DNA of 64,000 nt from Demequina sp. B12 (GTDB taxonomy: Bacteria > Actinomycetota > Actinomycetes > Actinomycetales > Demequinaceae), in contig NZ_JAPEHU010000001.1 of NCBI RefSeq assembly GCF_028823635.1, forward strand, positions 248,001 to 312,000, given 5' to 3'. A program made the translations under genes and the position numbers. Position 1 is the first letter of the stretch. Every line of letters starts with the position of its first letter. The notes beneath the pieces were generated by a model, which worked only from the letters and a program-made list of their open reading frames with translations, had not been told where the DNA came from and did not search any database. This document shows, in pieces, positions 12,408 to 57,353 of the stretch.

Positions 12408-12791
12408 CTACTCAGTCTTGTCCGCGTACTCGTCCGGATCCATCAAGTCCTGCGCGGACTCGCTGAGCTCGACCTTGAAGATCCAGCCCTCGCCATACAC
12501 GTCAGAGTTGATGAGGTCTGGAGCGTTCTCCAACTGCGGGTTAACCTCCGTCACAGCGCCAGTCACCGGCGAATACAGCTCGGAGACAGCCTTCGTGGAC
12601 TCAAGTTCACCGCACACGTCCCCGGCCTTGACCTCGTCACCTACGGAAGGTGCCTCGACATAGACCACATCACCCAGAGCATCGGCCGCATAATCCGTGA
12701 TGCCCACCGTGACTACGGAGCCAGGAGATACGTCGCCACGCACCCACTCGTGCTCCTCCGAGTACAGCAAGTTGTCAGGAATCTCCGCCAT
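12408..12791 (-). CDS. gcvH: Glycine cleavage system H protein
   Basis: A 127-residue lipoyl carrier that shuttles the aminomethyl group between GcvP, GcvT and the dihydrolipoyl dehydrogenase. The lipoylated Lys is in the canonical ELESTKAVSE. The N-terminal LLYSEEHEWVR is diagnostic. The ATG at 12791 is preceded by AAAGGTGG at the right distance; a GTG three codons upstream falls inside that site and is unlikely to be used. It lies 42 bp downstream of gcvT in the same operon. Confidence 0.96.
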   Translation of the reverse strand: MAEIPDNLLYSEEHEWVRGDVSPGSVVTVGITDYAADALGDVVYVEAPSVGDEVKAGDVCGELESTKAVSELYSPVTGAVTEVNPQLENAPDLINSDVYGEGWIFKVELSESAQDLMDPDEYADKTE

Positions 12792-12833
12792 TGGTGCCAC
12801 CTTTCGACGCTGGAGGAACTCTCACCTTTGAGG

Positions 12834-13967
12834 CTACGCGCCCCGTCGGTAGAACGGTAGCGCGATTACGCGCATGGGTTCACGCCTGCCACGCACATCG
12901 GCCGCTAGCTCCGTGCCCGGCTCCGCGTGAGAACGCGCCACATACGCCATGGCCACGGGCTTCCCCAGCGTTGGCGACGGCAGTCCTGACGTCACCACGC
13001 CCACCGTCGCACCATCTGCGTCGACCACGGTGTACCCCGCACGAGCAGCACGTCGGCCCTCACCCACCAGGCCTACCAAGACCTCGGCGGTCCCGGACCC
13101 CTTCACAGCGGCCAACGTGTCGCGGCCCACAAAGTCGCCACGTTCCGGACCGTCTGCCCGGCCAAAGTTCACGACCCGGCCCAAGCCCGCCTCGAAGGGA
13201 CTACGGTCACGCGACAGCTCATTGCCGTACAGCGGCATGCCCGCTTCCAAACGCAACGAGTCGCGTGACGCCAGCCCACACGGCACCAGGCCGGCATCCG
13301 CGCCATGCGCCACCGCAAGGTCCCACACATCTGCCGCGAGGTCAGCGGGCACGAACAGCTCGAAACCGTCTTCCCCGGTGTATCCCGTACGGGCGACAAA
13401 GGCATGCATCCCACCGTGCAACAGGACGTTCGCGGCCGTGTAGTACTTGAGCGCGGGCGGATCTTCAGCACCGATCTCACACATCGCCGTCACAATGTCG
13501 ACAGCGCGGGGACCTTGCACCGCAATCAGTGCAATAGCAGCGGTTTCGTCTGCAACCTCAGCATCGAAACCCCCCGCCGCAATGCGGGCCCGCAACTCTT
13601 CTACGACCGTCTCGCGGTTGGAGGCGTTGGCGACCACCATGAAGTGTTCCCAGTCGCGGCGGTACACCACCAGGTCATCGAGGACTCCACCCTGAGGTGT
13701 GCAGATCATCGTGTACTTCGCGGCCCACAGCTTCATGCGGCTCATGTGCCCCACGAGCGCATAGTCCAGGGCCGCTGCAGCGTCAGGACCGGTGACCATC
13801 AGCTCGCCCATGTGGGACAAGTCAAAGAGCCCCGCCGCCGTGCGCACAGCGTGGTGTTCAGCCACATCAGAGGTGTACCGCAACGGCATCTGCCATCCGG
13901 CAAAGTCGACGATCGTGGCACCTAGTTCACGGTGCTTGTCCAGCAGGGGCGTGCTCAGTTCGCTCAC
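12834..13967 (-). CDS. gcvT: Glycine cleavage system T protein (aminomethyltransferase)
   Basis: A 377-residue folate-dependent enzyme that takes the aminomethyl group from GcvH and releases ammonia and methylene-tetrahydrofolate. Motifs include [37 protein letters not shown] and [12 protein letters not shown]. The GTG start is preceded by TAGGTT six bases upstream (13974-13979), so the mRNA is probably leaderless. It heads gcvT-gcvH-mutT. The partner gcvP is 16 kb away on the same strand, beyond the kinase operon. Confidence 0.96.
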
Positions 13968-14004: not shown

Positions 14005-14865
14005 CTACCCGCCGACGCCGGCTACCGCAATCACGATCACGATGCCCGCCGTCATCACCACTGCGGTGACCGCTGCGACGACCGCCACGATGAGGGTGCG
14101 TTTGCGACGCTGCGCGACCCGGCGACGGGCGGCCTCTTCTGGGGAGGACACCACATCCGCGGCGCCCGGTCCGGCTGCACCCGGGGCGCCCGCCTGAGAG
14201 CCAAACCCTGCCGGGAGTGCGCTCGACACGGCGGGAGCCTGTCGGGCCTGGTAAGGAGCCTCTTTGTCGCCTGGGGCGACGCTCGGTGCTGCGACGGTGT
14301 TTGCCGTTGGCAGCGAGTAGCCGGGCGGGAGCGCCGAGCGGGTCCGTGGGGAGCGAGTGGGGCGGGGATGGACCGGCGCCGTCGGGGTGGAATCGGGCCG
14401 GGGCGGCGCACTCGCCGGAGGCAACGCCGAGGTTCCAAGTGCGCGGCGAGACGACATGACCGTGGAGTCATCGTTGTCGCTGGGCGCGACCGGAGTGGCG
14501 CTTGCGCGGCGAGACGACATGACGGTCGAGTCGTCGTCTGCCTGCAGACGCGAACTGCGGCGGGCAGACATCACTGTGTGGTCGTTGTCCGCATCATCCT
14601 GGGAGCCGGGTGCGGGAGTGCCGGTGGCAGCAGCACGCCGCGTCGACATGACCGTGTGGTCGTCGTCCTGCGCGCCAGCAGCACGCCTGGTCGACATGAC
14701 TGTGTGGTCGTCGTCCTGCGCGCCAGCGGCACGCCTGGTGGAGATCACGGTCGCATCGTCCAGGTCGGGGTTGTGGTGCTCGTGAGCCGTCCGGCGCGTG
14801 GACATCACCGTGTGGTCGTCGTCGAGGTGGTCGTCGTCGAGGTGCTCGTCAGGGGTCGATGTCAT
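14005..14865 (-). CDS. Tail-anchored protein with seven DDDxTVMSxRR repeats
   Basis: A 286-residue protein of no family I recognise. Residues 10-141 carry seven copies of an acidic-x-T-V-(M/I)-S-x-R-R motif, with Thr at 19, 39, 55, 71, 97, 114 and 135. Repeats 3 and 4 lie in an almost exact 48-bp tandem duplication (about 14642-14737). A Pro/Ala-rich linker follows, then a basic stretch ([10 protein letters not shown]) and one hydrophobic helix at about 256-286, which places the repeats in the cytoplasm. The ATG overlaps the PP2C stop by 4 bp. Acidic residues before Thr and hydrophobic ones after it resemble actinobacterial Ser/Thr kinase sites, so this may be a multi-site phospho-acceptor. 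That function is inference. Confidence 0.8.
14642..14737 (-). repeat. Two 48-bp tandem repeats inside the repeat-protein gene
   Basis: Two nearly identical 48-bp units, differing at about two positions, each encode 16 residues containing [16 protein letters not shown]. Near identity at the DNA level suggests recent expansion by slippage or unequal exchange, while the other five protein repeats have diverged. Confidence 0.75.
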
Positions 14866-15686
14866 CGGTCCACCTGCCGACGAGAACTCGCGACCGTGTC
14901 GTCGTCTTCCCACTGCTCACCGAACAGGGTCCAGGGGCTGACGTCCACACCGGGTGGCGTGACGGCGGTCAGGACGTCGGCGACCACCACGGTGACGTTG
15001 TCGTTCGTGGTGAGCGCTAGCGCCGTGTCCACCAGTCGGCTGGCGGCTTCCTGTGGCGTTCCCGCGTATGCGGCAGTGAGGCCGATGCGGCGGTCGTCCA
15101 CGACCTTGGTGAGGCCGTCGCTCGCGATCACCAGGCGGGCTCCGGGGCTGACAGGAACGAGCCACGAGTCAAAGTCCGGAAGGCCGTCCCCGATGGCGCG
15201 GGTGACGATGTTGCGGTCTGGGTGGCGTTCCGCTTCGGCCGCGGTGATGCGGCCCGCATCGACGAGGTCTTGAACGTGGGAATGGTCGCGAGTGACCTGG
15301 TAGGCAACGTCACCGTCGATCACGTAGGTCCGCGAGTCGCCCACGTTGATGACCATCCACCAGGGTGCGCCAGCGTGCTCGACGGCGATGGCGCCGGTCA
15401 CGGTAGTCCCGGACTCGCCGCCCACGGAACGTGAGACTTCCAGCACCGCCGCTTGGGACTTCACCACAGCATCGGCTACCTGCTCCGGGCTCACGGTGGG
15501 GAGGTCTGCCAGTTCAGAAAACACGTCGATCACGGCAGCGGAGGCCGCAGCGCCGGCGTGATGACCGCCCATGCCGTCAGCGACGATGTGGACGGCGCCT
15601 CGGGACAAGAAGGCGTCCTCGTTGCGGGCGCGTGGACCTTGGTCGGTGGCCCCCGCCCCAGCCGACCACGGTGCCGCCTGGGTCAT
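14862..15686 (-). CDS. PP2C-family protein phosphatase
   Basis: A 274-residue PPM/PP2C Ser/Thr phosphatase. The metal-binding motifs are [31 protein letters not shown] and SDGLTKVV, with Asp residues in place for two Mn2+/Mg2+ ions. There is no transmembrane helix, unlike the second PP2C at 52-53 kb. The last 16 residues carry one copy of the repeat found in the next gene ([10 protein letters not shown]). The start overlaps the FHA gene stop by 4 bp. PP2C enzymes in this cluster type are expected to reverse the action of the operon kinase. Confidence 0.92.
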
Positions 15687-17815
15687 CCGCGGCCCTCGTC
15701 CTGGCTGATGGTCGCTTCCAAGTCTCCCAGGATCAACACGCCTTCGACGCGCGCGAGGGTGCCCACGACCACTTCCGATTCGCGGCCGGCGTCGTCACGC
15801 AGGTAGGTGCCGTTCGTCGAGCCGAGGTCGGTGACGTGCCAGGCACCCTCCAGCAACTGCAAGGTGGCGTGCTTTTTCGACATCGTTCGGGTTTCGTCGA
15901 CGATGCCGAGCACCCCGGTGTTGTTGGCGCTCTTGCGTCCCAAGGTGATGACGTCTCCGACGAGCGCATAGGACTCACCGCCGTCGACGTGCAAGCTCCA
16001 CGAGGTGCGCCGGCGGCTCGCGATCACGGTGTGGTCGTCGTCGGATTCCTCAACGCTGGGTTGACTCTGCGGGGCAGACGAGGCGATCGGGGCGACGACG
16101 ACCGGTGCCGGAGGCACCGGCGAGGCAGGTGCGGCGGTTGAGCGGCGCAGCTCCGGGATGGGCTGGGTTGCGGGGTCAGGCTCGGGAGCCGATGCTGCGG
16201 CTGGCTCAGGTGCGGACGCCTGGACGGGAGCCGGCGGCACATCGGCGACGGGCTCGGGCGCTGGGGGTGCAGGAGGGGCAGGCGGTGCCACGGGCTCGGG
16301 CGGCGTTGACGCGACGGGCTCGGGTGCCGAGGGTGCAGGCGCTGGAGGAGCAGGCGCTGGGGGTGCCGGCGGAACATCCGGCACTTCCTGTGCGACGGGC
16401 GCGGCAGGCGCGTCCGTGGCAGGCTCCTGCGCGGCCTGGGCGCGGGCCTGAACGAGCCAGTCAGGCTCGGGCGCGGAGTCGTGCACGGGGACGGCGTACG
16501 GCGACACCGGGGGTGCTGACGGTGCCGGAGGTGCAGGCGGGGCCTCGGGCGCCGATGCCTCCGCTACTGGCGCTGGCGGGTCCGCGATGGGAGGGGCCGG
16601 AGCCACGGGTGGCGCTGGAGGGGCAGGTGGCGTGGGTGGGGTCGAGTCTTGCGCCGCGGGCGGCGCAGCCGGCGCGGGCGCAGAACCAGCCCATCCCGGA
16701 GGCATCCCGATGACGGAGTTGTCCTGAGGAGCCGGGGTGGACGGTGCGGACGCTGGGGGCGCGGGAGGAACGTCGACTGGCGGTGCGGGGACCGCATCCA
16801 CCGGGGGTGGAGGCACATCAGCCCCTGTCGCGGGCAAACCGGCAGGCGGGGGCGGGACGTGGGCACCAGTGACAGGAGCACCGGTGGGCGGACCAGCGGG
16901 CGCCGGAGGAACCTGCGGGCTGGGGGCCGACGGAGTCGCGATCACAGTCTCGTCCCCAGGCTCGACCTCCGCGCGGGCCCAACCCCACGCAGGCGCAGCG
17001 GCAGGTTCCTCAGACGCGGGCGGCGCAGGCGGCGCCGGCGGGGCGGGCTGCGGTGGGTTGTCCGAGCGGAACCAGGACTGCGACATGTCTGTCTCCTCAG
17101 TGGCGGCGGCCGTGTCGTGTGAAGGTGCGGAAAGTTCAGGGGACGCGGGGCCCGTCATGGGCGAAGGCGCGTGTGGGGGGACGGAAGGTGCGGAGGGCGC
17201 GGAGTTCTCCACGGACGGAACGGCGGGGGCTCCTGGCGCGGAAGCAACGGCAGCGGGCTCCTGCGCGGCAACGGGCTCATGCGCAGCAAAGGGAGCCGGA
17301 GCGACCCCTGCGCGGGCAGCAGCGCGAGCGGCCGCATCGGTCCTCCCCGTCATCCCGTACGGCCCCCAGCCCAGGATGGAGGCCCACACCGGCGGGCAAA
17401 TCGCGGCGATCCAGGTCAGCGCAGCGGGGGCGTGAACGCGCAGCTCAATCGTGCCGGCGCCGTAGATCCACAGCACCCACCCCACGGTGGCGCTCGTCAC
17501 GAACACCAGGAGTCCAACGACAACAAGTGCACGCTGCCACGGCTCGCCGCTGTCGGCGTGGAGCGCGATCATCCACCCGCCCACGTATGCGGGAAGCGCA
17601 CCCGTGGCGGACAGACCGCGGGCAAGTCCCACAGCAATGGTGGACATTCGTGCTGCACGAGCAGCCTCGATCCATCGCAGGACCGGAACAAAAACCAGGG
17701 CTCCGTTGCCGCCGATCTTGCCAAGCAAGGCACGCAAAGCAAGCCCCATCCACACCAGGTGAACGAGACTCGCACCAGCGATGACGCTGAGAAGAACGAC
17801 GAGAGTCATCCTCAC
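15683..17815 (-). CDS. Membrane protein with Pro/Ala-rich linker and C-terminal FHA domain
   Basis: A 710-residue protein with three parts. The first 165 residues contain four or five hydrophobic segments. Residues about 170-590 are a very Pro/Ala-rich, probably disordered linker. Residues about 604-710 form an FHA domain with LGRKS, MSKKHA and LGSTNGTYL, the phospho-Thr binding signature. Directly before the FHA domain is one copy of the operon repeat (DDDHTVIASRR, about 592-602), and a weaker copy (GDETVIAT) lies in the linker. An FHA domain next to its own possible phospho-site suggests GarA/OdhI-like intramolecular binding; this is inference. The gene overlaps both neighbours by 4 bp. Confidence 0.87.
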   Translation of the reverse strand: MRMTLVVLLSVIAGASLVHLVWMGLALRALLGKIGGNGALVFVPVLRWIEAARAARMSTIAVGLARGLSATGALPAYVGGWMIALHADSGEPWQRALVVVGLLVFVTSATVGWVLWIYGAGTIELRVHAPAALTWIAAICPPVWASILGWGPYGMTGRTDAAARAAARAGVAPAPFAAHEPVAAQEPAAVASAPGAPAVPSVENSAPSAPSVPPHAPSPMTGPASPELSAPSHDTAAATEETDMSQSWFRSDNPPQPAPPAPPAPPASEEPAAAPAWGWARAEVEPGDETVIATPSAPSPQVPPAPAGPPTGAPVTGAHVPPPPAGLPATGADVPPPPVDAVPAPPVDVPPAPPASAPSTPAPQDNSVIGMPPGWAGSAPAPAAPPAAQDSTPPTPPAPPAPPVAPAPPIADPPAPVAEASAPEAPPAPPAPSAPPVSPYAVPVHDSAPEPDWLVQARAQAAQEPATDAPAAPVAQEVPDVPPAPPAPAPPAPAPSAPEPVASTPPEPVAPPAPPAPPAPEPVADVPPAPVQASAPEPAAASAPEPDPATQPIPELRRSTAAPASPVPPAPVVVAPIASSAPQSQPSVEESDDDHTVIASRRRTSWSLHVDGGESYALVGDVITLGRKSANNTGVLGIVDETRTMSKKHATLQLLEGAWHVTDLGSTNGTYLRDDAGRESEVVVGTLARVEGVLILGDLEATISQDEGRG

Positions 17816-20388
17816 TTCTTGCCCTTACCTCTGCCTTGACGTGTTCGAGTCCGGCCGCGCCTCAGTCGCGTACCCGTCGCTCCAGTGTGGTCGCTTCTCC
17901 AATGGACTCGCTGGAGGTCGCTCGGCGCGGCCTCAGGCTCACTCGTGGCAGACGTCGATCTCCACAGCGATCGCAACGACAAGCGCATCCGTACACGGGC
18001 CCACCAACGCCGGTCGCGCAGCCACGTGGAGCGCTCTTCATCGACGAGCGTCCAGAAGTGGTCGGCCTCGTCCTGCGCCACTGCCACAGCACCAAAGGTC
18101 GCTTTGTCTGTCAGACGCGCGATCTCCGGACCGTGCGCGGAACCATACGCGGCGGCAACCTCATGGCGGGTGGCCAATGGCATCGCAGCCAAGCCTGCAT
18201 CGGCGGCCGAATCAAGGTACTCGTCCCACCCGCCGTGAATGGAGTCCTGCGGCTCACCACTACGGCGGCGACTACGACGGATGGCCTTCCAGATCAGAAT
18301 CGCCAGGAACGGACCCAGCAGTATGAGAAGGCCCACCATGCTGGCACCCACGACGCGCAAGACCGGAATCAGTGCAGACTCACCGGCCTCTTCCTCGACG
18401 GTCGACGACGAAGAGTCGTCGGAGGTTCCGCGTTGCGTGGACGGCGGGACGATCGCTTCTGCGTGACGCGGGTCAAGCGGAGACGCAAACTCGGGATCCG
18501 TCTGTGCCGACACATCGGGTGACACCACATTGGTGTGCTGCGGGGTGACGTCTGCCGCAACCCACACACCGTCCTGGCCTTGGACTTCTACCCATGCGGA
18601 CATGTTTTGACCACGGCACTCGCCCGCGTCACATGCCGGGGCTGCGTAGCCTTCAGCGTCGGTCGTTTCCAGACGCGTCCCCATCACGACGCGCACGGGA
18701 TATCCCATGTCGGAAGCAATCAAGGCGACCGCGGTGGCAAGTTGCTCGTCATCGGCGGCATAGGCGACGAGTTGCGCCTCCGAGGCCCCTTCACCAGCGG
18801 CGACGGCCTGCTCGTTCAGGGCGGTGAACATGCGGTCCATGTGATCGTAGGAATGCCCCGACGGCGCCGCCATGAAGGCGTAGTCACCCAAGGCCTGCTG
18901 CCAGGCAGCGACCTCGTCGCCTTCCATCAGCGCGTGGCTCAGATAGGTGCGCTCGCGCAGCGTCGTGATGAGCTGGGCGAGACCTTCGCCATCCTTCGTA
19001 ACGCCCTGGTTCGCCACCCAGTCGCGCAGGGACTCAGGAATGAACGAGGAGTTCACTGAGCCTTTGCCCGGGGGCGGTCCCATCTGCGAGACCGCAACAC
19101 CGGGAGTGACATAGCCACTGACCTCGTAACCGTCTCCGGTAGCAAGCCCGCCATCGATTCCGATGACGCCCGTGTCCGCGGCCATGTCGTAATAGAAGCT
19201 GTCCACCAGTTGGGATCGACGCGCGCCGTCGAAAGTGATGGATTCCAGTTCGCCCACGAGTGGCACCCAGATGCCGTCGCCCGCGCCCACCGACACGGTC
19301 ACCGCTGCGTGCGAGGCACCGTTTTGCCCATCCAGCCGTGCGGGGACACGTTCAAAGCGCGCTTCCTGGCCGTCTGGCGCGGAGGCCGAGAAGGTCTCGC
19401 CGTCGTAGTACGACAGCGACGCAATCCTGATGCGCTCCGGCTCACCGTCGTCAACGGCCACGGTAAAGAGCACCTCGTCGTAGACCTCGTCGGTGAAGAA
19501 CGTTCGGAAAGCCGAAAGGGGCGAGGCTGCGGATTCCACGGTCAGTCGCGGGTCTACGGCGGATCGCGCCACTTCACGCGGGGTGTGCGCGGCGATCGGT
19601 CCGGCGGCGAGCAATGCCACTGCGACGCTTGCAGTCACCATCGCCGCCACCGCAGCCGTGCCGGCCAAGACTCGGGAGTGCGGTGCTTGTGCCAGGCGCG
19701 CTGTTCCCGCGTCCTGGGCATGGGTGATCGCAGCCTTACGGGCGGCGGCAGCCCTCCACGAGAACCAGGCCAGGATCACCAGGAACTGGGCCAAGCCCAC
19801 CACAAACTCGTGATTGATGACCACCCCAAACGGCGCCACAGCCAAAGGCTCGGAACGCACGGCAGGGCCCAATCCAATGGCCGCCACTTGGAGGCCGCCC
19901 AGCACCACTGCGCCCCAGCCCCACTTGGGTGACCGCAACGCGAGCCACGTGGCACCCGCCGAGGCAATCAAGAACAACGCGAACACGGGCACGAGCGTGG
20001 CGCGGTACTCGCCTAGCGGTACCGGAAGGGTGACGATGTCTTTCCACCCCAGAACGGGGCCCCTCACCAGCTCGAGCGCGGCACCCAGGGCGGAGTCAAC
20101 GCCGCTCGTGGCACCGGGCACCACCAACGTCAGCCCCACCACCACATACAGGGCCGCCACGATGAGGGCAACGGTGCCGCCGCGACGGCCCCAACGGTCC
20201 ACCACGAACGCTGTCCCCGCACCACCGAAGACAGCGATCAGCATCACCAGCAGGTAGCGCTGTGATCCGTACACGCTCGCCAGCGTCCACGCCGCCACCG
20301 CAGCGCCCGCAATCACGAACAGGGTGTTGATGAGTGCGGGAGCGAAGCTCAGCGTGGCGGCGCTAGCCCGGCGAGGTCGGCGCGTCAT
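17812..20388 (-). CDS. Transglutaminase-like membrane protein lacking catalytic Cys and His
   Basis: An 858-residue protein resembling the TgpA/DUF3488 type: about six or seven N-terminal membrane segments, an extracytoplasmic region with a transglutaminase-like core (about 480-650), a membrane helix near 670-697 and a 150-residue cytoplasmic tail rich in Arg at its end. In the core, the place normally held by Cys reads ADDEQLATA (about 547), and the usual His-Ala-Trp reads SAWVEV (about 597). Only the Asp of AADVTPQ (about 613) remains of the triad. The protein is therefore probably not a transglutaminase or protease and may bind peptides or act as a scaffold. It matches the tgm position of PFNA clusters. 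Confidence 0.85.
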   Translation of the reverse strand: MTRRPRRASAATLSFAPALINTLFVIAGAAVAAWTLASVYGSQRYLLVMLIAVFGGAGTAFVVDRWGRRGGTVALIVAALYVVVGLTLVVPGATSGVDSALGAALELVRGPVLGWKDIVTLPVPLGEYRATLVPVFALFLIASAGATWLALRSPKWGWGAVVLGGLQVAAIGLGPAVRSEPLAVAPFGVVINHEFVVGLAQFLVILAWFSWRAAAARKAAITHAQDAGTARLAQAPHSRVLAGTAAVAAMVTASVAVALLAAGPIAAHTPREVARSAVDPRLTVESAASPLSAFRTFFTDEVYDEVLFTVAVDDGEPERIRIASLSYYDGETFSASAPDGQEARFERVPARLDGQNGASHAAVTVSVGAGDGIWVPLVGELESITFDGARRSQLVDSFYYDMAADTGVIGIDGGLATGDGYEVSGYVTPGVAVSQMGPPPGKGSVNSSFIPESLRDWVANQGVTKDGEGLAQLITTLRERTYLSHALMEGDEVAAWQQALGDYAFMAAPSGHSYDHMDRMFTALNEQAVAAGEGASEAQLVAYAADDEQLATAVALIASDMGYPVRVVMGTRLETTDAEGYAAPACDAGECRGQNMSAWVEVQGQDGVWVAADVTPQHTNVVSPDVSAQTDPEFASPLDPRHAEAIVPPSTQRGTSDDSSSSTVEEEAGESALIPVLRVVGASMVGLLILLGPFLAILIWKAIRRSRRRSGEPQDSIHGGWDEYLDSAADAGLAAMPLATRHEVAAAYGSAHGPEIARLTDKATFGAVAVAQDEADHFWTLVDEERSTWLRDRRWWARVRMRLSLRSLWRSTSATSEPEAAPSDLQRVHWRSDHTGATGTRLRRGRTRTRQGRGKGKK

Positions 20389-21779
20389 GAGGCCGCTCCC
20401 TTGGCAAGCAACTGGCGCAAGTCATCCAGGATGCCCAGGCTGAGCACGCGGGTGCGGCCCACGGCATGCATCGACGGTTCTGACTCGGGGTCACACACCA
20501 CCGCGGCAACGCCTACGTCAACCGGGAACGCCAGGGCCGATGCGGACAGTTCCGGCAGGCTGGCATGGGAACCCGTGACGATGAAGGCCAAGGACGTGTC
20601 CGCAGACACCTCGACCAACATGCGGCTCAAAATGGGGATGCTCACCACGCTGGGGCTGCGGTCCACCCCGGAAAGATCATCGAGAAGCCTGCGCGGGCTC
20701 GTGACGGCAAGTCGCTCCAGCGACCGGACGGACGCACGCGCAAACTCTGGCACCTCACCGGACACCACGACCTCAACATCGCGGCCATCACGAATAGCGC
20801 GCACGGCGAGAGACCCGGCCGCACTCACGGCCATCTCGAACTCTGCTTCGTTGGCGTAACTCTCGTCTGCCAGGTCCAACAGGATGGAGATCGTGGACCG
20901 GCGCGTCTCTTCAAACTGACGCACCATCAGGGTTCCGGTCTTTGCCGTGGACTTCCAGTGAATGTGCCGCTGAGCGTCACCCCTGGCGTACTCGCGGACG
21001 GCGTGGAAGTTGATGTCTTCCGAGGTAATGGTGCGGGTGGTCCGCCCTTCGAGATCGCGCACAAACCCCATCGAGGTGGACGGGACGCTGATCGTCTTGG
21101 GGTGGATGTACAACGTCTGCACGTCAGCCCAGTGGAAGGTGCGCTGCAGCAGTTTCAGCGGGTCGGCACGCGTGGTGGTCGCCGGCCCCACATCGACGAT
21201 TCCACGCTTTGCTGCCGGCAACAGGATGGGTTCCTTGTGAACGTGGCCCTTGCGCAGCAACGGAACGTGAAAGTCGATCAGACCTTCGCCCACCGGCACG
21301 TCCACCTGACCAGGCAACGCCACCCTGGTGCGCTGGTTACGCACCACGATCTCTGCCCGCGCATCGTCCCCCGCCACGACGGCGTCTTGCAGCAACGCAA
21401 AGTCAACTTCGTACGGCTCCCGCCCCAGGAGGAACGGCAGCGCAATCACCAGCAGCGTGAGCCCCACAAACGCGCCCACCAGGAACTCGCCCCACCCCAG
21501 AGTGAGGCCGGCGATCAGGCCCGCGATCGTCCACACGATCACGACCCATCCCGCCGGAGTGGTGACCGACCGCACCGTGCCCCACGCTGCATCGCTGCGG
21601 GCACGGACCACACGCCCAGTCCGCAAGCTCCACAGGCCAAGCGCCACCCACCGGCCGTGCGTCTCTTCCGCATACTGCGTGCGGGTGCGCGTCGACGCCC
21701 GGGTGTGGCCGGTGGAGGTCCGGCTGGTCCGGGTATGGCTGCGGGTGTCGGCGCGGCGCCGTGGAGGGGCCTGGGTCAT
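20385..21779 (-). CDS. DUF58 domain-containing membrane protein
   Basis: A 464-residue protein. After a basic N-terminal region rich in Arg/Thr come two hydrophobic segments (about 78-120), then a soluble part with the DUF58 signature REYARGDAQRHIHWKSTAK followed by GTLMVRQFEE. DUF58 proteins have a von Willebrand factor A-like fold and almost always accompany MoxR ATPases, as here, where moxR lies 4 bp upstream. They are thought to present clients to the ATPase, but no biochemical role is settled. Confidence 0.9.
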   Translation of the reverse strand: MTQAPPRRRADTRSHTRTSRTSTGHTRASTRTRTQYAEETHGRWVALGLWSLRTGRVVRARSDAAWGTVRSVTTPAGWVVIVWTIAGLIAGLTLGWGEFLVGAFVGLTLLVIALPFLLGREPYEVDFALLQDAVVAGDDARAEIVVRNQRTRVALPGQVDVPVGEGLIDFHVPLLRKGHVHKEPILLPAAKRGIVDVGPATTTRADPLKLLQRTFHWADVQTLYIHPKTISVPSTSMGFVRDLEGRTTRTITSEDINFHAVREYARGDAQRHIHWKSTAKTGTLMVRQFEETRRSTISILLDLADESYANEAEFEMAVSAAGSLAVRAIRDGRDVEVVVSGEVPEFARASVRSLERLAVTSPRRLLDDLSGVDRSPSVVSIPILSRMLVEVSADTSLAFIVTGSHASLPELSASALAFPVDVGVAAVVCDPESEPSMHAVGRTRVLSLGILDDLRQLLAKGAAS

Positions 21780-21783
21780 GGGC

Positions 21784-22749
21784 TTACTTCAGGTCCTGCT
21801 GCGACGGCGGAACCGTGTCGAGGAGAATCTGACCGATAACTGCAGTGGCGGTCACGCCGTCGAACTCAGCTTCGGGGTCCAGGATGATGCGGTGGGCCAG
21901 CACGGCCTCCGCGAGAGTCTTGACATCGTCCGGCGTCACGTAGGTGCGACCGTGAGCGAGAGCCCAGGTACGAGCACCCCGGGACAAGGCAATGGCACCA
22001 CGAACGGAGACACCTAGGCGCACCTGCGTGGCGTTACGTGTGGCATCGACGATGCGGGCGATGTAGTCCAGGATCAGCGGGCTGGCGTGGACCTCGCGCG
22101 ACAACGCGGTCATGGCGCCGATGGTCTGGAGCTCCGCGATCTGGGGGACCGTGACCTTGACGGGACGCCCAGCATCGAGGATCTGCAGGGTGGCACCGTG
22201 GTCGGGGTAGCCCAGCGAGGTGCGCATCATGAAACGGTCCAACTGCGCCTCGGGAAGTGCATACGTTCCGGCCTGCTCGACCGGGTTTTGGGTGGCGACC
22301 ACCATGAACGGCGAGCCGGCGGCGCGGGTCTTCCCGTCAACCGTCACGGACCCCTCTTCCATGACTTCCAGCAGCGAAGACTGGGTCTTGGGCGAGGCAC
22401 GGTTGATTTCGTCGGCGAGCACCACGTTGGCGAACACAGGGCCCGCGTGGAACTCAAACGTGCCCTTGGCCTGGTCGAACACCGTGATACCGGTCACGTC
22501 TCCAGGCAGCAGGTCCGGCGTGAACTGGATGCGGGTGGACGTGCCCTTGATGGTCTGGGCGAGCGCACGCGCGAGTGAGGTCTTGCCGGTGCCGGGGACG
22601 TCTTCCAACAGCAGGTGGCCTTCGGAGATCATCGCGGTGAACGCGAGCTCCACCACGTGGCGCTTGCCCAGGACGGCGCGTTCCACGTTGTCGGACAGTG
22701 CGGAGAAGGTGGTGGCAAACCAGGTGGCCTGCTCGTCGGTGACGGTCAT
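21784..22749 (-). CDS. MoxR-family AAA+ ATPase
   Basis: A 321-residue cytoplasmic AAA+ ATPase. It has Walker A in EDVPGTGKTSLARALAQ, Walker B in NVVLADEINRASPKTQSSLLE, sensor 1 in VVATQNPVEQAGTYALPEAQ and the C-terminal ASPLILDYIARIVDATR lid. MoxR ATPases work as chaperones that assemble or activate partner proteins, usually with a DUF58/VWA partner encoded alongside. Here it is flanked by the giant surface protein (25 bp upstream) and DUF58 (4 bp downstream). Confidence 0.95.
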   Translation of the reverse strand: MTVTDEQATWFATTFSALSDNVERAVLGKRHVVELAFTAMISEGHLLLEDVPGTGKTSLARALAQTIKGTSTRIQFTPDLLPGDVTGITVFDQAKGTFEFHAGPVFANVVLADEINRASPKTQSSLLEVMEEGSVTVDGKTRAAGSPFMVVATQNPVEQAGTYALPEAQLDRFMMRTSLGYPDHGATLQILDAGRPVKVTVPQIAELQTIGAMTALSREVHASPLILDYIARIVDATRNATQVRLGVSVRGAIALSRGARTWALAHGRTYVTPDDVKTLAEAVLAHRIILDPEAEFDGVTATAVIGQILLDTVPPSQQDLK

Positions 22750-22774: not shown

Positions 22775-25700
22775 TCATGGTGCCACCGTGGGGGTAGGGC
22801 TGGGCGTGGGGGTCACCACTGGCGCGGGTTCGTCGACCAGGTCGCCGCACGACTTCCGGGAGGATTCCCAACTGCGAATCCCGGATAGTGCGCCAGTGAA
22901 GGTGACTTCAATCGAGGCATAGTTGCGGTTCCATAGCTCCACGCCCTGGGTGTTGCTCCAGCTGTCCTCCCACCAGGTCACGGCGGTGGTGTAGTCGCCA
23001 GGTTGTGCGGCGACCGTGACGTTGACGCTTTCGTTTGCCACCGAGCACGACACGAACGTCACCTCGGTGGGGTAGGAACGCGTGGTGTCCGCGGGCCCCA
23101 CTGCGGTCGAGGAATCGGAGCAGGGCGCGTCCGTCCCCAGGAACGTGGGGCAGTACACCGCACGAATACTTGGCACGTTTCCGTAGGCGTTGGCAAGCGA
23201 GAAGCTGCTCTGCGGGGGTGCGCCCTCATGGCTATAGCGCAGTTCGAAGCCGCGCGGCGCGGACTGCACACTGGGCGCGCTCCACGACGTCTCGCAGCGG
23301 GCAGAGTTGCTCGGCTCACAGCGGTTGCTCACGCCGTAGCCGTTGTTGACCGCGGGAGCGCCAGGATCTTGGTACGTGTACACGCCGGTGATGGCCTGGC
23401 TAGAGGTGCCGTAGCCCTTGCTACCTACGCGACTCTCTGCGCACAGGTTGTACGTGTAGAGGCGGTTCGACTCGACAGTGACGGTGACGCTGGCGGAACC
23501 GCCGTTCGCGCGCGTGTTCGGCGTGCAGTGCTGGCCGTCCGCAGCAATCCCAATGTAGGTTTCCGAGCCTGTGCCGGCACTCGCCACCTGAGCCGTGAAC
23601 GTGACCTGCTGGCCGTCCGTACTGGCCTTCCACGAGGGACTCGTGACAAGCGGGCCGCCGACTCCGTTCGCCTGGAACGAGAGCGTCTCGCCGGACTCGC
23701 TGCTGGCCCCAACCGGGGGCAACTCGTGCCGGGTCACCGGGGTGACCGTCACCGTCTGTGGAGTGTTCGACCCCACCAGATAGCCATTCACGGTGACGTT
23801 TCCACGGCCTGACACCTGAACGGTGCGCTGCTCTCCGCTGGCGCTGGTGAGTTGTAGCGAGCGCGTGGAGGGGTCGGAAACTCTGAGGACAAGGTCCGCA
23901 CGTAGCCCCTCGCCACCGGTGACCGACGGGGCGGTAGACACCAGCGCGGGCTGCGCGGGTGGCGCGTAGGCCCAGGCCGTCGCGGAGGCAGAACCCTTCG
24001 ACTTTCCGACCGAGTTCACCGCGACCACGGAATACTGAGTCTTCTCACCGTTGGACAGCCCGGTGATCTGAGAACACGCGCCGCTCGCGGTGCAAGTCGC
24101 CACCTCAGTACCGCCAGCAGTCACGCTAAAGCCAGTAATGGCGGGGTAGGCCGATGCGGCAGCACCGGGGTCCACGCCAAGAGTGATGCTGCCGTCGCCA
24201 TACGCGGTTTGGGTGAGTGCGGCAGGCGTGCCGGGGAAGCCCTGCAGGTCAACCGTCACAGACCCGAGACGTTCACCAGAGCTGAGACGCTTCTGGGCGT
24301 CACGCACCACGAACGATGCCGAGCACTTGGCGCCGGCAGTGTCACCTGTCCACGACGCCCGCACTGCGGTGTCGGAGGCGATGTCGAAACTCACGCCCGA
24401 ACAGGTGCCGTCGCTGCTCACCGACACCAGTTCCAGTTGTGTCTCCGGCAGCGGGTTGACCTCGCCAGAGCCACCAATGACGTCGATGGTGCAGGAGGAG
24501 CCATCGGCTTGCGAGCAGGTTTGCGTGACAGTCGCACCCTTCGGAAGGGTCGACGGCGCCGGCCCCACCTCAAGTGCAAGGCTGACGGGCGGCGTTTCGG
24601 GATCTGACGTCAAGGTCACGGTGATGTTCTCGGTGTTGCCCGGAGGAGCATCGGACGCCGCCTTCAGCGTCAGAACCGTGCCGCTACGGGACACCGTGAA
24701 CCATTCACCCGCTTCAGTGATGCCGAACTCGACGGGCCGGCCCGGTGCGCCGTCAGGCCAACTGACCATGCCGGCCAAGTCGAAGGTTGCTTCCTCTCCA
24801 GGAGAAACTTCGAGGGCCGCTCCCGCAAGCGTCGGCACGGGGATCTCAGGAATGATGATGACGGGCACGGGAAGAGTCGTCGGCTCATCCTGACCGTCAA
24901 CCAACACCGGCACTGCACACGTGTCCGTGTAGGGCTCGCCCTCGCCAGCGCTGTACGTCAGGCGAGTACCACCCGCTGACGTACAGACACCTTGCGCGCG
25001 GCTACCGGACGCGGCCACGGCATCGGCGTCAATCGTGAATGACGTTTCTGGTGGCAACGCGATCAGGTCTGCCATGTCGAACGTGATGGACTCGTTCTCG
25101 TTGACCTCGGGAACGGTGAAGTTCTCCTTCAGCGCCACGATGATCTCCCGGTCGCCGGGCACACGGAGGAACCCGTAGGAGACCACTTCTTCCCCCGCGA
25201 AATTCACGCCGCTCACCTGGAACGGCACCAATCGCGCCGAGTCCGGCAGCGGGCCAGAGATGCTGCGGCCAGAGACGGTCAGGTCCTCTTGAGAACCCCA
25301 CAACGACAGCGTCAGACCCGCAGGATCACCTGCACCCCAGGCCACCTTGTCCGCCAGGACGTCAACGCCGTCCGCGAACTGCTCGCGCGTGTCCGCAGTC
25401 AGCACCGTGTCCGTGATGATGGGGACGTCCGCGATGGGTTCGCGAACAGCCTTGAGAATGATGCGGCCAATGGACGTCGAGCCCTGACTGTTGGCCACGG
25501 TGTAGACGAACGCCAACGTGCCCGGCTCCGTACCCACGGTGAACTGGATCCTGTCGCCGTCGGGCTTGCCGACGTGTGCGGCAAGCGCGTCGTACTCGTC
25601 GGTGCCGCGCTTGGCATCAGGCACCACGCTCACCAGCTGGAGTTCACCGCCGGACAGGTCGATATCGTTCGCGGTGGGGGTGATGACGACGCGACGGTCC

Positions 25701-28700
25701 TCGCCCACCTGCGCTTGGACGTAGTCGGTGTACGTCACGGGGCGGGGGTCCAGTTCGGCAGCCAAGACACCGACGGTCGCCGTTGCCGTTGCGGTCGCAC
25801 CGCGCGCATCCTCAACGGAGAACGTGAACGCCACCTGGCCAGAGAACCCAGCATCCGCCGTGTACACCAGCGAGCGGCCGTCAGCTGAAACGCGCGCAGC
25901 ACCCGTGCTGGGCTGGGTCTCAATGGCCTTCAACGAGACCCGGTCACCGTCGGGATCCGTGCCCGTGCCGTCAAAGGGCAGCCGCACTTCTTGACCGGCT
26001 GCCACACGGCCCGCAAGCGGTTGCGGCGTAGGCGGCTGATTGGTCTCGTTCGCCAATACGGTCACCACCACGGAAGCCTTGTCCGACTGCGTGGGATAGC
26101 CCAGCACGTACGCCGAATAGTCAATCGTGTAGACGCCCGGGGTTTGCGGCGCGAGGTAGCGCACCAGAGTGCCTGCAGGGAAGGCCAGGCCGCCGCCGTC
26201 AGCGAGTTCCACGGAATCGGCGTCGAGGGCGATCACGTTGCCCGCCGGGCCCACGTCGTTGGCCAGCACCTTGATGTCCGCCTGAGTTCCTGCACGCACG
26301 GTGATGGAGTCGTCGACCGCCAGCGGGGTAGCAGGCACGTCAGTGCCGAGCAAGATCACGGTGATCTCGCCGCGCACGGTGGACTCTGGCCGTCCAGAAC
26401 CGTCAGAAACGGTGTAGCTCACCGTGCCGAGCGTGCCCGGCTGTCCCGTCTCCGTGTCACCAGACAAACGCAGAGCCGAGTGGCCCACGATGTCCGCAGA
26501 CAACTGGGCGCCATCGGCCGGAGTGGTGTGCAGGTCGCTCAGCAGCAAGACGTTGCGGCCCGGGTCTGTCACGGCGGCCAGGACATCGACCGTCACGTCC
26601 TCATGAGTACGCACGAATGCGGTGAGCGGCGCAGTGGTGAGCTGCGAATCCTCAGGGTCGATCACAGTGATGCGGGCCATACCGCGCCCGTCGGAAATGC
26701 CGTCGTTGACGGTGAAGTCGACCAGGAACGATCCTGGCTCCTCACTCGAGAACGTGAAGCCCACCAGTCCCTGCGCGGTGGCCACCACCGCATCAGAGTC
26801 AGTACCTGCGGAGGCCTCTGTCACGGTGAGTGGGCCGCGAGCGCCGGTCACCCGCTCAGCGAGTTCCACGGTCGCTTGAACCCCGGTGGTGACGGTGACG
26901 GCGAGGTCTTCAACCCGCAGTTCGGGCTCCCCCACCACGGCGACGGTGAGGTCCTTGTCGTTGGACGCTCCAAACGCATCGGCCACTTCCACGGTGATGG
27001 GTACGGAACCGGTCTCCGTGGTCGAGGGGTTGGTGTGCTGGAACACCAGTTGACCTTCGGGGGACGGCGCGGTGACACCGACGGACGATGAGGTGTGTGC
27101 GGAGGCAAGGTAGATGGGGTCACCTTCGGGGTCGACCCACCCGGTGAGGACGTCCACGTTGACGGTGCCGCCAGGGTTGACCTGCGGTGAGGGCCAGTCG
27201 ACCTGGCAGTCGTCGACGCCGCACCATTGAGGCGGGGAGTTCTCGGACTCGTCCTTAATGGTGATCGTGACAGTCGCGGGCTCCGATTCGAGTCCGTCGT
27301 CTGCGGTGCCGTCGGTGATGGCGTAGGTCAGCGTGGCAGTGCCGGTGGCGTTGTCGGCGACGTCGACCACTACCAGCTGTGAGTCGTCTGCGACGTGTGC
27401 GGTGCCGAAGGCCTCGTCGAGACCCGTGAGGGAGGCGGGGTCCACGGCAAGGACGTCTCCGTTGGCGTCGTGGTCGTTGAGGAGGACCGGCAACGCTACT
27501 TGGCGTCCCGCGCGCGCTCCGAAGGCGTCGTCTTGGGCGATGGGGGCGCGAGGCTCGGTGACTTCTGTGGCGACTTCGCGGTCGTCAGCGGCCTGCTGGA
27601 CCTCGTCGTCGATTTCCCACTGCTGGGACGAACCGATCAGGCGGCCGGAGGGGACGTCCCACACCCAGCCAGTACGGGCTTCGTTCAACACCAGGCGGGA
27701 TCCGTTGGACCGCAGCACCGGCACGACACGTTCACCCAAGGTGGCCTCGCCGTACGACAGTTGGACGGGGCTCTCGCCACTCATCCATAGTTCGCCAGGA
27801 CCGTTCTCTGGGCCGAGCCAGGCGGCAACCATGCCGGCACCATCGGGCGATTCGGTGGGGCGGGCCGGCGTGCCGCGTGACAAGTCTGTGGGACCTACCA
27901 GGTAGGACGCGCTGGTGCCATCGATTGCAGCAGAGACGATGCCGTAGTCATCTGCGATGAGCACCTCGTCACGTGCGCTGCTTGCCTTCTGAAGCAGGGC
28001 GTCCTCGGCGGCACCCGTCGCGAGGGGCTCAGCGAGGTCTTGGATCCACAGGCGGGCCGTGTCTTCGTCGTACAGCACCCAGGTGTCACCTACCCAGGTG
28101 ATCTGTACACCTTCCGTTTCGGGGCCTTCGGGCAGGGCCGATGTCGCAAGCACCTCGCCCGTTACTACGTTGCCTGTCAGCACGGCACGGCGCTCAGGCG
28201 AGTATGCGCCCACGATTCCGGACGTCGACACGGACACGGTGGCGGCACGGAACTGGGGACGTTCCTCACCTTCCTCGACTTCCACGTCCGCGAACGGGTC
28301 AAAGCCGCGTGGGCTGGTCGCGGAACCGGTCGCCATGTCTCCGGCGAACACCTGCCCGGTATCGGTCAGGTACGCCACATACGTGCCGGTGCTGACGACC
28401 GCATCGGTTCCCGTGGGGGTCGCGACCGTCGCTTCTGGGGCTTCCGCGGAGATGTCGAACGGCATTGCCGCGTCCACCTGGGTCACGGAGCCCAGGTTGT
28501 TGGAGAAGACCAGCAGGTCACCGCCGTTTTGCACCAGGTCGCTGGGAGCTGCGACGCCCTTGACGGTGTCGAGTTCACCCACGGTCGTGTTGACGCGGGC
28601 GAACCGCTGTCCGGTGCCGGTTTGGAGGGCCCACACTGACGGACTGTCCGGTGTCACTTCCCGCTCGTCAAAACCGGGCGCAACAAACACCCCCACCAGG

Positions 28701-28792
28701 ATGGCGGCCACCAAGGCCCCCACGCCGATGCGACGGACCACCCGCCACCGAGCCGCCGTGGCACGCCCCAACCCCGTCTCCACTGCGCTCAT
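22775..28792 (-). CDS. Giant surface protein with Ig-like and fibronectin type III domains
   Basis: A protein of about 2005 residues, anchored by one N-terminal helix (about 25-43) with the rest outside the cell. Residues about 60-380 look like a WD/propeller-type region. A long array of Ig/cadherin-like units follows, marked by PIAQDDAFGARAG with LPVLLNDHDANGD, and by AVDDSITVRAGTQADIKVLANDV. A fibronectin type III-like unit lies at about 1500-1600 (FSVTAGGTEVATC, then YSVVAVNSVGKSKG). The C-terminus is Cys-containing and ends in a Pro/Thr tail; no LPxTG signal is present. The ATG at 28792 lies just after the kinase stop. It corresponds to the fn3 gene of PFNA clusters and could supply the extracellular sensor that the kinase lacks. 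Confidence 0.88.
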   Translation of the reverse strand: MSAVETGLGRATAARWRVVRRIGVGALVAAILVGVFVAPGFDEREVTPDSPSVWALQTGTGQRFARVNTTVGELDTVKGVAAPSDLVQNGGDLLVFSNNLGSVTQVDAAMPFDISAEAPEATVATPTGTDAVVSTGTYVAYLTDTGQVFAGDMATGSATSPRGFDPFADVEVEEGEERPQFRAATVSVSTSGIVGAYSPERRAVLTGNVVTGEVLATSALPEGPETEGVQITWVGDTWVLYDEDTARLWIQDLAEPLATGAAEDALLQKASSARDEVLIADDYGIVSAAIDGTSASYLVGPTDLSRGTPARPTESPDGAGMVAAWLGPENGPGELWMSGESPVQLSYGEATLGERVVPVLRSNGSRLVLNEARTGWVWDVPSGRLIGSSQQWEIDDEVQQAADDREVATEVTEPRAPIAQDDAFGARAGRQVALPVLLNDHDANGDVLAVDPASLTGLDEAFGTAHVADDSQLVVVDVADNATGTATLTYAITDGTADDGLESEPATVTITIKDESENSPPQWCGVDDCQVDWPSPQVNPGGTVNVDVLTGWVDPEGDPIYLASAHTSSSVGVTAPSPEGQLVFQHTNPSTTETGSVPITVEVADAFGASNDKDLTVAVVGEPELRVEDLAVTVTTGVQATVELAERVTGARGPLTVTEASAGTDSDAVVATAQGLVGFTFSSEEPGSFLVDFTVNDGISDGRGMARITVIDPEDSQLTTAPLTAFVRTHEDVTVDVLAAVTDPGRNVLLLSDLHTTPADGAQLSADIVGHSALRLSGDTETGQPGTLGTVSYTVSDGSGRPESTVRGEITVILLGTDVPATPLAVDDSITVRAGTQADIKVLANDVGPAGNVIALDADSVELADGGGLAFPAGTLVRYLAPQTPGVYTIDYSAYVLGYPTQSDKASVVVTVLANETNQPPTPQPLAGRVAAGQEVRLPFDGTGTDPDGDRVSLKAIETQPSTGAARVSADGRSLVYTADAGFSGQVAFTFSVEDARGATATATATVGVLAAELDPRPVTYTDYVQAQVGEDRRVVITPTANDIDLSGGELQLVSVVPDAKRGTDEYDALAAHVGKPDGDRIQFTVGTEPGTLAFVYTVANSQGSTSIGRIILKAVREPIADVPIITDTVLTADTREQFADGVDVLADKVAWGAGDPAGLTLSLWGSQEDLTVSGRSISGPLPDSARLVPFQVSGVNFAGEEVVSYGFLRVPGDREIIVALKENFTVPEVNENESITFDMADLIALPPETSFTIDADAVAASGSRAQGVCTSAGGTRLTYSAGEGEPYTDTCAVPVLVDGQDEPTTLPVPVIIIPEIPVPTLAGAALEVSPGEEATFDLAGMVSWPDGAPGRPVEFGITEAGEWFTVSRSGTVLTLKAASDAPPGNTENITVTLTSDPETPPVSLALEVGPAPSTLPKGATVTQTCSQADGSSCTIDVIGGSGEVNPLPETQLELVSVSSDGTCSGVSFDIASDTAVRASWTGDTAGAKCSASFVVRDAQKRLSSGERLGSVTVDLQGFPGTPAALTQTAYGDGSITLGVDPGAAASAYPAITGFSVTAGGTEVATCTASGACSQITGLSNGEKTQYSVVAVNSVGKSKGSASATAWAYAPPAQPALVSTAPSVTGGEGLRADLVLRVSDPSTRSLQLTSASGEQRTVQVSGRGNVTVNGYLVGSNTPQTVTVTPVTRHELPPVGASSESGETLSFQANGVGGPLVTSPSWKASTDGQQVTFTAQVASAGTGSETYIGIAADGQHCTPNTRANGGSASVTVTVESNRLYTYNLCAESRVGSKGYGTSSQAITGVYTYQDPGAPAVNNGYGVSNRCEPSNSARCETSWSAPSVQSAPRGFELRYSHEGAPPQSSFSLANAYGNVPSIRAVYCPTFLGTDAPCSDSSTAVGPADTTRSYPTEVTFVSCSVANESVNVTVAAQPGDYTTAVTWWEDSWSNTQGVELWNRNYASIEVTFTGALSGIRSWESSRKSCGDLVDEPAPVVTPTPSPTPTVAP

Positions 28793-57264: not shown

Positions 57265-57353
57265 CTAGACCATGACCAAAGACAGCCAAATCTACGCAAG
57301 TGCAACAATGTCACCCGAGACACGCACATGTGACGTGGAAGACTGAAGGACAT

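Follow-up and report, generated by a model that had tools for sequence, protein, structure and literature searches.

A membrane-anchored array of repeated threonine motifs is a candidate phosphothreonine docking hub in a PFNA-like gene cluster of Demequina

The stretch of Demequina sp. B12 DNA analyzed here (64,000 nucleotides, hereafter called the window) carries a run of genes in the order kinase, Ig-repeat giant, MoxR, DUF58, transglutaminase, FHA, PP2C, and array, which is flanked by gcvP-like and gcvT-like genes (Table 1). The gcvP-, gcvT-, and gcvH-like names are presumptive assignments from the sequences, and orthologues of the gcvP-like and gcvT-like genes occupy the same position in relatives. 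All genes of the run share one orientation, and 4-base overlaps link DUF58 to transglutaminase, transglutaminase to FHA, FHA to PP2C, and PP2C to array. This arrangement agrees with the proposal made in a first-pass annotation of this DNA that the kinase, FHA, and PP2C genes form one operon.

Matches to PF00069, PF07726, PF01882, and PF01841 all lie within this co-oriented run, and thus the kinase-MoxR-DUF58-transglutaminase combination by which PFNA clusters are recognized is present. The large protein of the window contains no fn3 domain in a Pfam search at E 0.001, which assigns it Big_9 and cadherin-like domains. However, the large genes of family f4 loci, which are bifidobacterial-type by gene order only, hold the same cluster position and have 25-27% identity to the window or L056 query. 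This suggests that the large protein of the window is homologous to that of the f4 loci. Because fn3 is missing, yet position and identity point to homology, we use the term “PFNA-like” for the cluster throughout this report.

Table 1. Genes of the PFNA-like cluster and its flanks (positions in the window)
Feature	Coordinates	Strand	Description
gcvH-like gene	12408..12800		after gcvT-like gene
gcvT-like gene	12834..13967	(-)	downstream flank of cluster; ORF
Tail-anchored array protein (TAP)	14005..14865	(-)	286 aa, ATG start; seven motifs, linker, C-terminal helix
PP2C-type phosphatase	14862..15686	(-)	274 aa; one motif copy at extreme C-terminus
FHA protein	15683..17815	(-)	710 aa; N-terminal membrane part, Pro/Ala linker, motif, C-terminal FHA domain
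Membrane transglutaminase-like protein (TGM)	17812..20388	(-)	858 aa; PF01841 3.7e-06
DUF58 protein	20385..21779	(-)	464 aa; PF01882 1.5e-11
MoxR-type AAA ATPase	21784..22749	(-)	321 aa; PF07726 2.6e-61
Very large protein	22775..28792	(-)	about 2005 aa, start chosen at first in-frame ATG; N-terminal membrane segment, Ig-like (Big_9) repeats
Ser/Thr kinase	28797..29909	(-)	370 aa; C-terminal membrane helix 350-368; DFG+1 = Val
gcvP-like gene	30057..32921	(-)	upstream flank of cluster; ORF

The array protein is encoded on the minus strand, which the first-pass annotation had not specified, and contains seven DDxTV(M/I)SxRR motifs centered on Thr 19, 39, 55, 71, 97, 114, and 135, exactly as the first-pass annotation had listed them. 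By comparison, 500 composition-preserving shuffles of the same protein yielded a mean of 0.19 motifs and a maximum of 2. Hydropathy analysis gives a single hydrophobic segment at residues 259-277 of 286, preceded by a very basic stretch, and this coincides with the C-terminal membrane helix proposed previously. The earlier view that the protein belongs to no described family is likewise borne out by searches of Pfam-A and NCBIfam (0 families at E 0.001), and the array proteins of three relatives also match 0 Pfam families (E 0.01). Moreover, the accessible portions of open-licence PMC papers yielded no description of an array like this one.

Comparison of the seven repeats in all 21 pairs revealed 87 synonymous and 40 non-synonymous codon differences, and the 16 pairs for which both values could be computed have a mean dN of 0.157 and a mean dS of 1.49. 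Because the codon differences are mostly silent, the repeats do not look like a fresh duplication, and their repetition appears to have been kept at the protein level. To judge from these codon comparisons, the array repeats are under purifying constraint.

Copies of the motif in the PP2C tail and ahead of the FHA domain were overlooked in the first-pass annotation. The PP2C copy begins at about residue 261 of a protein in which hydropathy analysis detects no membrane segment. In the FHA protein, the motif DDDHTVIASRRR starts at about residue 593, just N-terminal of the FHA domain (in longer context, SDDDHTVIASRRR), and a weaker copy, GDETVIATPSAP, is located in the linker at about residue 288. 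This linker is rich in Pro and Ala and spans ~430 residues (by eye), and it follows N-terminal membrane segments that include at least residues 3-21 and 97-115 (hydropathy). The Ig-repeat protein has one loose match without the arginines at about residue 809 (GEITVILLGTDV), and a motif scan of the TGM, DUF58, MoxR, and kinase proteins listed nothing.

On a genome scale, a broad DNA pattern produced 11 matches in the genome of origin (7 in the cluster and 4 elsewhere), compared with 4 for a reversed control. The pattern DDxTx[VILM][SA]xRR gave 49 matches among 44 Demequina genomes, distributed over 21 of the 44, whereas the reversed pattern gave 1. Thirty-nine of these 49 matches fall at FHA/PP2C/array loci, including 5 (in G315 and G316) that were assigned by spacing only, and the other 10 fall elsewhere.

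The FHA domain adjoining the flank motif is identified by PF00498 at 34.2 bits (cut-off 20.7) and is modeled by AlphaFold2 with a mean pLDDT of 87.1. Its best fold matches are the MDC1 FHA domain (including complexes with the N-terminal phosphopeptide of MDC1 itself), DgcB, ArnA, GarA, OdhI, and FhaA, and VIA-align superimposes the model on MDC1 FHA with Z 14.3 and rmsd 2.4 over 99 residues. Structural matches are nearly all FHA domains, and the motif segment is barely covered by them. A sequence comparison with solved chains puts an Arabidopsis FHA protein first, with OdhI and GarA next and TB39.8 (FhaA) also among the matches; against the OdhI model, the FHA protein scores 23.5 of 200 bits, below the cut-off. 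The Gly-Arg, Ser-Lys-x-His, and Ser-Thr-Asn-Gly columns are invariant in a 19-row FHA alignment, and we take them to hold the phosphate-binding Arg, Ser, and Asn. In the model, the segment that carries the flank motif is undocked, with pLDDT 55-66, and about nine residues separate the flank Thr from the first strand. A structure alignment was made with 25 of 35 rows: eight were dropped for size, and L170 and L175 were omitted because their flank looked frame-shifted.

The first-pass annotation had suggested a search for similar arrays next to PFNA-type clusters, and such arrays were found in other Demequina, in family f19, and in Leucobacter. Specifically, arrays lie beside homologous clusters at 28 of the 36 loci in our main set, at 9 of 12 family-f19 loci, at 2 of 2 further Demequina loci, and at 4 of 6 Leucobacter loci. 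The last figure comes from a scan that covered only loci with a PP2C gene, and thus took in neither the other two Leucobacter loci nor any from Microbacterium. Arrays of relatives follow the PP2C or FHA gene, and the number of strict motifs in them ranges from 0 to 7. In the window and the 28 loci, 2-7 motifs per array were counted versus shuffle means of 0.09-0.32; for 7 of these 29 arrays, the observed count was attained in one or more of the 500 shuffles (17 for L043, 6 for L072, and 1 each for five others). The sequences used for relatives are partly stop-to-stop frames, some of which start upstream of the true start. One repeat at L039 carries Ala in place of Thr (DDSAQLATRR).

No array was seen at the remaining 8 of the 36 loci (L044, L046, L060, L063, L065, L067, L069, and L070), which were left out of the motif counts. 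The f19 loci that lack an array are L109, L112 (only FHA of the cluster genes), and L142, whereas L105 was counted as an array despite 0 strict motifs. A scan for at least 3 copies revealed no array in 20 other loci, 7 of them bifidobacterial-type, and none on the cluster strand of 10 family-f11 loci; a possible array at L127 is on the other strand and is uncounted. Given its absence from these 20 loci and 10 family-f11 loci, the array appears to be an accessory rather than a core component. Absence of the repeat from all homologous operons, together with neutral drift, had been named in the first-pass annotation as an outcome that would refute the phospho-acceptor reading. What we observe are arrays in several lineages and codon-level constraint on the repeats.

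The Thr motif preceding the FHA domain has a wider distribution than the array. A strict pattern detects it at 47 of 50 PFNA-context loci versus 2.2 expected after shuffling, a count that is somewhat favored by the choice of loci, because the queries whose FHA matches defined these loci contained the flank motif. The same choice means that any arrays without an FHA neighbor would be missed. In 45 of the 47 loci, the flank Thr is 29-31 residues from the conserved Gly-Arg. The three misses (L123, L127, and L129, all from family f11) have an acidic-Thr element with no Arg or Lys at +5. The PP2C tail motif is weaker, being present in 24 of 33 tails when a loose pattern is used.

At several Demequina loci (L060, L063, L065, L178, L044, and L046), FHA alone or FHA with PP2C occupies the gcvP-gcvT site, as though the other cluster genes had disappeared, and the flank Thr motif is kept. 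Among these, L060, L063, L065, and L178 have a gcv-linked FHA gene with no adjoining PP2C gene or array found, and gcvT comes immediately after the FHA gene at the first three; L148 and L149 repeat L044 and L046. Genomes G001, G028, G032, and G034 have, at another site, a second cluster that is more nearly complete. L067 and L171 show another arrangement, with a stretch that by eye is hydrophobic at the end of the PP2C and a pair of Thr motifs in the FHA flank (DATIMSPVDDDATVLSAR and similar). Inspection of L067, which shares its contig with L176, showed no array protein next to the PP2C gene.

The motifs are highly selective for their central residue. Among 44 arrays, 157 motifs are Thr-centered versus 4 that are Ser-centered, and Ser (627) and Thr (582) are about equally common in these arrays overall. 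When the Arg requirement was dropped, position +5 proved to be Arg in 106 of 117 Thr-centered motifs and in 0 of 10 Ser-centered ones, with Lys in none. FHA domains are described, in the part of the source available to us, as having high specificity for phosphothreonine (PMC3146460), and so this exclusivity for Thr is what an FHA partner would impose.

Position +3 is reported to be crucial for FHA recognition in the portion of the DgcB study that is accessible (PMC6733907). Of 94 motifs in gcv-linked Demequina arrays, 87 have Ser or Ala at this position, and Val occupies it in 16 of 21, 26 of 35, and 4 of 7 motifs of the other three array groups. The +3 class is the same in the FHA flank and in the array majority for 39 of the 41 scorable clusters among the 44 (26 small and 13 aliphatic), the FHA motif having been assigned manually in the window, L037, and L107. 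Two clusters are discordant (L043 and L066), the Leucobacter arrays of L162 and L174 are ties that fall in neither class, and L105 has no strict motif. The agreement has a Fisher value of 6e-9 that ignores descent, and on the FHA tree the +3 class changes 3 times, leaving 2 independent supported pairs, of which about 1 agrees and 0 oppose. A phylogeny-aware covariation test was set aside, as it has no power with 2 such pairs. Because the agreement is confounded by descent and lies mostly between deep lineages, we regard it as suggestive only.

Some further sequence details concern these positions. In Demequina genomes G001 and G028, the two FHA proteins differ at +3, with Ser in the gcv-linked protein and Val in that of the second cluster. 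FHA flank and array often have different residues at position +1 (Val or Gln against Arg). The residue after STNG was considered as one that might track the +3 class, and this idea was dropped after several contradictions were noted by eye.

The first-pass annotation had stated that the motif fits the preference of PknB-type kinases, and this claim survives only in part. The available text on Mycobacterium tuberculosis PknA lists acidic residues at -1 and -3 to -6, Pro at -1 and +2, Leu or Val at +3, and Lys or Arg at +4 (PMC7164672), a pattern that the array motif fits only in part. The operon kinase reaches 129.9 of the 450 bits set for the PknB_PASTA_kin model, and its activation segment (DFGVASALEQGEDDVIAMSPPWSAPE) is atypical in having three Ser and no Thr. 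Given this segment and a score so far below the PknB-PASTA cut-off, a PknB-type preference is not simply transferable to this kinase. The operon kinase has Val after DFG (Table 1), and beta-branched residues in this position are reported to go with a Thr preference among yeast and human enzymes (PMC3898841).

An RSTVPVxSxR-like segment is conserved ahead of the kinase membrane helix, with Thr replaced by His in one Demequina clade. It was evaluated as a copy of the motif within the kinase itself and was not counted, since the conserved RSTVPV segment is not acidic but basic and that clade has replaced its Thr by His. The genome contains five other kinase matches. Two of these lie inside the window (~56371-58172) and are alternative writers for the motif, and a further FHA match in the window (~51379-51600) is an alternative reader.

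We propose, with a probability of roughly 0.6, that the array protein acts within the PFNA-like kinase/phosphatase module as a docking hub, which would be tethered to the membrane and multivalent in phosphothreonine. The scheme that we infer comprises phosphorylation, a particular kinase, FHA binding, clustering, and phosphatase feedback. A Ser/Thr kinase, most simply the tail-anchored enzyme of the operon, would phosphorylate the Thr of each D-D-x-T-V-x-S-x-R-R motif, and each phosphothreonine would then be a ligand for the FHA domain of the operon’s FHA protein. Because a motif copy lies directly before the FHA domain, phosphorylated FHA proteins might also bind one another via their own flank motifs. 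The seven array sites could in this way gather several FHA proteins, along with associates of their membrane parts, into one cluster. With one motif copy on its tail, PP2C could likewise be recruited, and it would shut the cluster down by dephosphorylation. Given the predicted membrane segments in the kinase and the FHA protein, the proposed partners could meet at the inner membrane face, and the output of the cluster is perhaps envelope assembly through MoxR-DUF58-transglutaminase.

This hub differs in one respect from the earlier proposal of a multi-site phospho-acceptor that concentrates FHA proteins at the membrane. The phospho-acceptor role is favored by the presence of the motif in three operon proteins, by its retention across lineages, and by its specificity for Thr and Arg. 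However, the FHA protein is itself membrane-anchored, and so the array would cluster this protein rather than recruit it to the membrane. One can also imagine a bolder version in which the components form a kinase-switched membrane condensate, where FHA proteins polymerize head to tail by way of their flank motifs, the tail-anchored array nucleates the polymer with a valency given by how many repeats it has, PP2C joins as a client and dissolves the polymer, and a +3 code insulates paralogous clusters within one cell from each other. We consider this version possible, but doubtful.

Several other explanations must be weighed against the hub, and the odds we assign to all of these readings overlap and sum to more than one. 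For example, the array might be a phosphate sink or kinase buffer. As a substrate with many sites, it would compete for the kinase with the FHA protein and PP2C and would set a threshold, with no lasting docking of FHA. A shared motif in array, FHA flank, and PP2C tail would be expected of such competitors, a variable copy number suits titration, and the kinase and its presumed substrate, both predicted to be tail-anchored, would share the membrane. Many Ser/Thr kinases accept Ser, however, and the near absence of Ser from the center of the motif (157 versus 4) is therefore not what a sink would predict, although a Thr-preferring kinase alone could also cause it. The near-fixed spacing between flank motif and FHA domain also points to the FHA domain rather than to a kinase alone, and the flank motif persists at the gcv-linked FHA loci where no PP2C or array was found (L060, L063, L065, and L178). 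We judge a sink to be unlikely. If the motif instead acted independently of phosphorylation, it might be a short linear motif that is constitutively active, or a segment patterned by charge, and its partner might be, for instance, MoxR, DUF58, the kinase, or lipid head groups. Its division into an acidic and a basic half and the lack of a docked peptide on the modeled FHA domain are compatible with this idea, and the accessible text on EssC of T7SSb states that its FHA domains lack the phosphothreonine site and presumably interact without regulation by phosphorylation (PMC11217815). However, the central Thr is nearly absolute, the phosphothreonine-site residues of the FHA domain are invariant, and the kinase and PP2C genes are linked, which together make this an improbable account of the motif.

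A different possibility is that the FHA-flank motif is the functional one, serving in cis autoinhibition, as in OdhI and GarA, or in trans dimerization, and that the array is a secondary competitor that frees the FHA domain. The system would then be a switch rather than a cluster, although this reading overlaps with the hub. In its favor, the flank motif occurs more widely than the array does (at 47 of 50 loci), a version without the arginines exists at the bifidobacterial-type loci L181 and L182, and OdhI, GarA, and DgcB are reported to bind their own tails in the portion of the source at hand (PMC6733907). In the model, however, the gap of about nine residues is by our estimate short for the motif to reach the binding site in cis. 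We hold a switch of this type to be conceivable but unlikely. Finally, neutral expansion of a functionless repeat would account for the variation in copy number across species. The codon-level constraint, the presence of arrays in several lineages, and the cluster-specific distribution of the motif argue against this view, to which we give almost no credence.

Several known systems resemble parts of the proposed hub. GarA and OdhI are soluble metabolic regulators of small size that carry a single tail motif, and we know of no array protein associated with them. Like the Demequina protein, they have the FHA fold with a Thr motif on its N-terminal side, and their own N-terminal phosphothreonine is bound, as described in the available part of the source (PMC6733907). 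The same text describes DgcB of Bdellovibrio as using its own phosphorylated N-terminal tail as an FHA ligand. An acidic residue at -2, a hydrophobic one at +2, and the weight given to +3 are further parallels with the motif described here. DgcB is coupled to a GGDEF enzyme, however, and the accessible portion mentions no separate multivalent hub (PMC6733907). In animals, phosphorylated Thr 9 of TIFA is reported to engage, head to tail, the FHA domain of a second TIFA chain and to drive condensates (PMC10865109, available in part), and structure titles indicate a complex of MDC1 with its pT4 peptide. TIFA and MDC1 thus resemble the proposed hub in multivalency and in having a Thr motif near the FHA domain as its ligand. 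In contrast, they are animal proteins that depend on eukaryotic kinases and lack a membrane array, and their kinship with the Demequina protein is limited to the FHA fold. For TIFA and DgcB, the resemblance lies in the way the hub might work and is not one of membership in the same system.

The bifidobacterial PFNA operon is described in the accessible texts as pkb2-fn3-aaa-duf58-tgm together with prpC, BLGT_RS02790 (a seventh gene whose function is unknown), and, in some species, fha (PMC8430577, PMC6803598). As in the window, genes for a kinase, a large Ig/Fn3-type protein, MoxR, DUF58, transglutaminase, PP2C, and FHA are found together. Furthermore, DWDSTVLSSSF or DWDSTVLSPSF, which lack the RR, precede the FHA domain at the bifidobacterial-type loci L181 and L182, where the PP2C ends in EDATLQTLR. 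The two cluster types differ in gene order and insertion site, and the large protein of the window has Big_9 rather than fn3 domains. In addition, an LRV_2 protein rather than an array lies between PP2C and FHA at the bifidobacterial-type loci, as identified for L181 (PF25591, E 5e-40) and as appears by eye for L180, L182, and L183. We considered whether the seventh bifidobacterial gene encodes the same array protein and rejected this idea, because the gene is LRV_2-like at the readable f4 loci (L180-L183).

Discussions of bacterial FHA proteins usually consider a single phosphothreonine partner at a time. Signaling through FHA domains and phosphothreonine is known, whereas a dedicated membrane-anchored ligand with many copies, for which our search returned no description, would be new if the candidate proposed here proves to be one. 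Because one operon supplies kinase, phosphatase, reader, and multi-copy ligand with the same motif, the ligand rules of a bacterial Thr-phosphorylation circuit might be read from sequence, and these rules are testable with a few peptides. The docking-hub reading also provides a concrete candidate function for an unannotated gene. Moreover, it offers a hint as to where ligands sit in PFNA-type operons, perhaps including those of host-associated bifidobacteria.

Coupling of a kinase, a phosphatase, and an FHA protein to a membrane machine is also seen among the type VII secretion variants T7SSc-j, several of which are reported to have kinases, PPM phosphatases, or FHA proteins. In contrast to the Demequina cluster, no repeated acidic-Thr array is mentioned for them in the accessible part of that report (PMC11217815). 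At L040 and L047, the cluster is followed not by gcvT, but by a gene with FHA and EssC/FtsK-like features (by eye), hinting at a link to type VII secretion.
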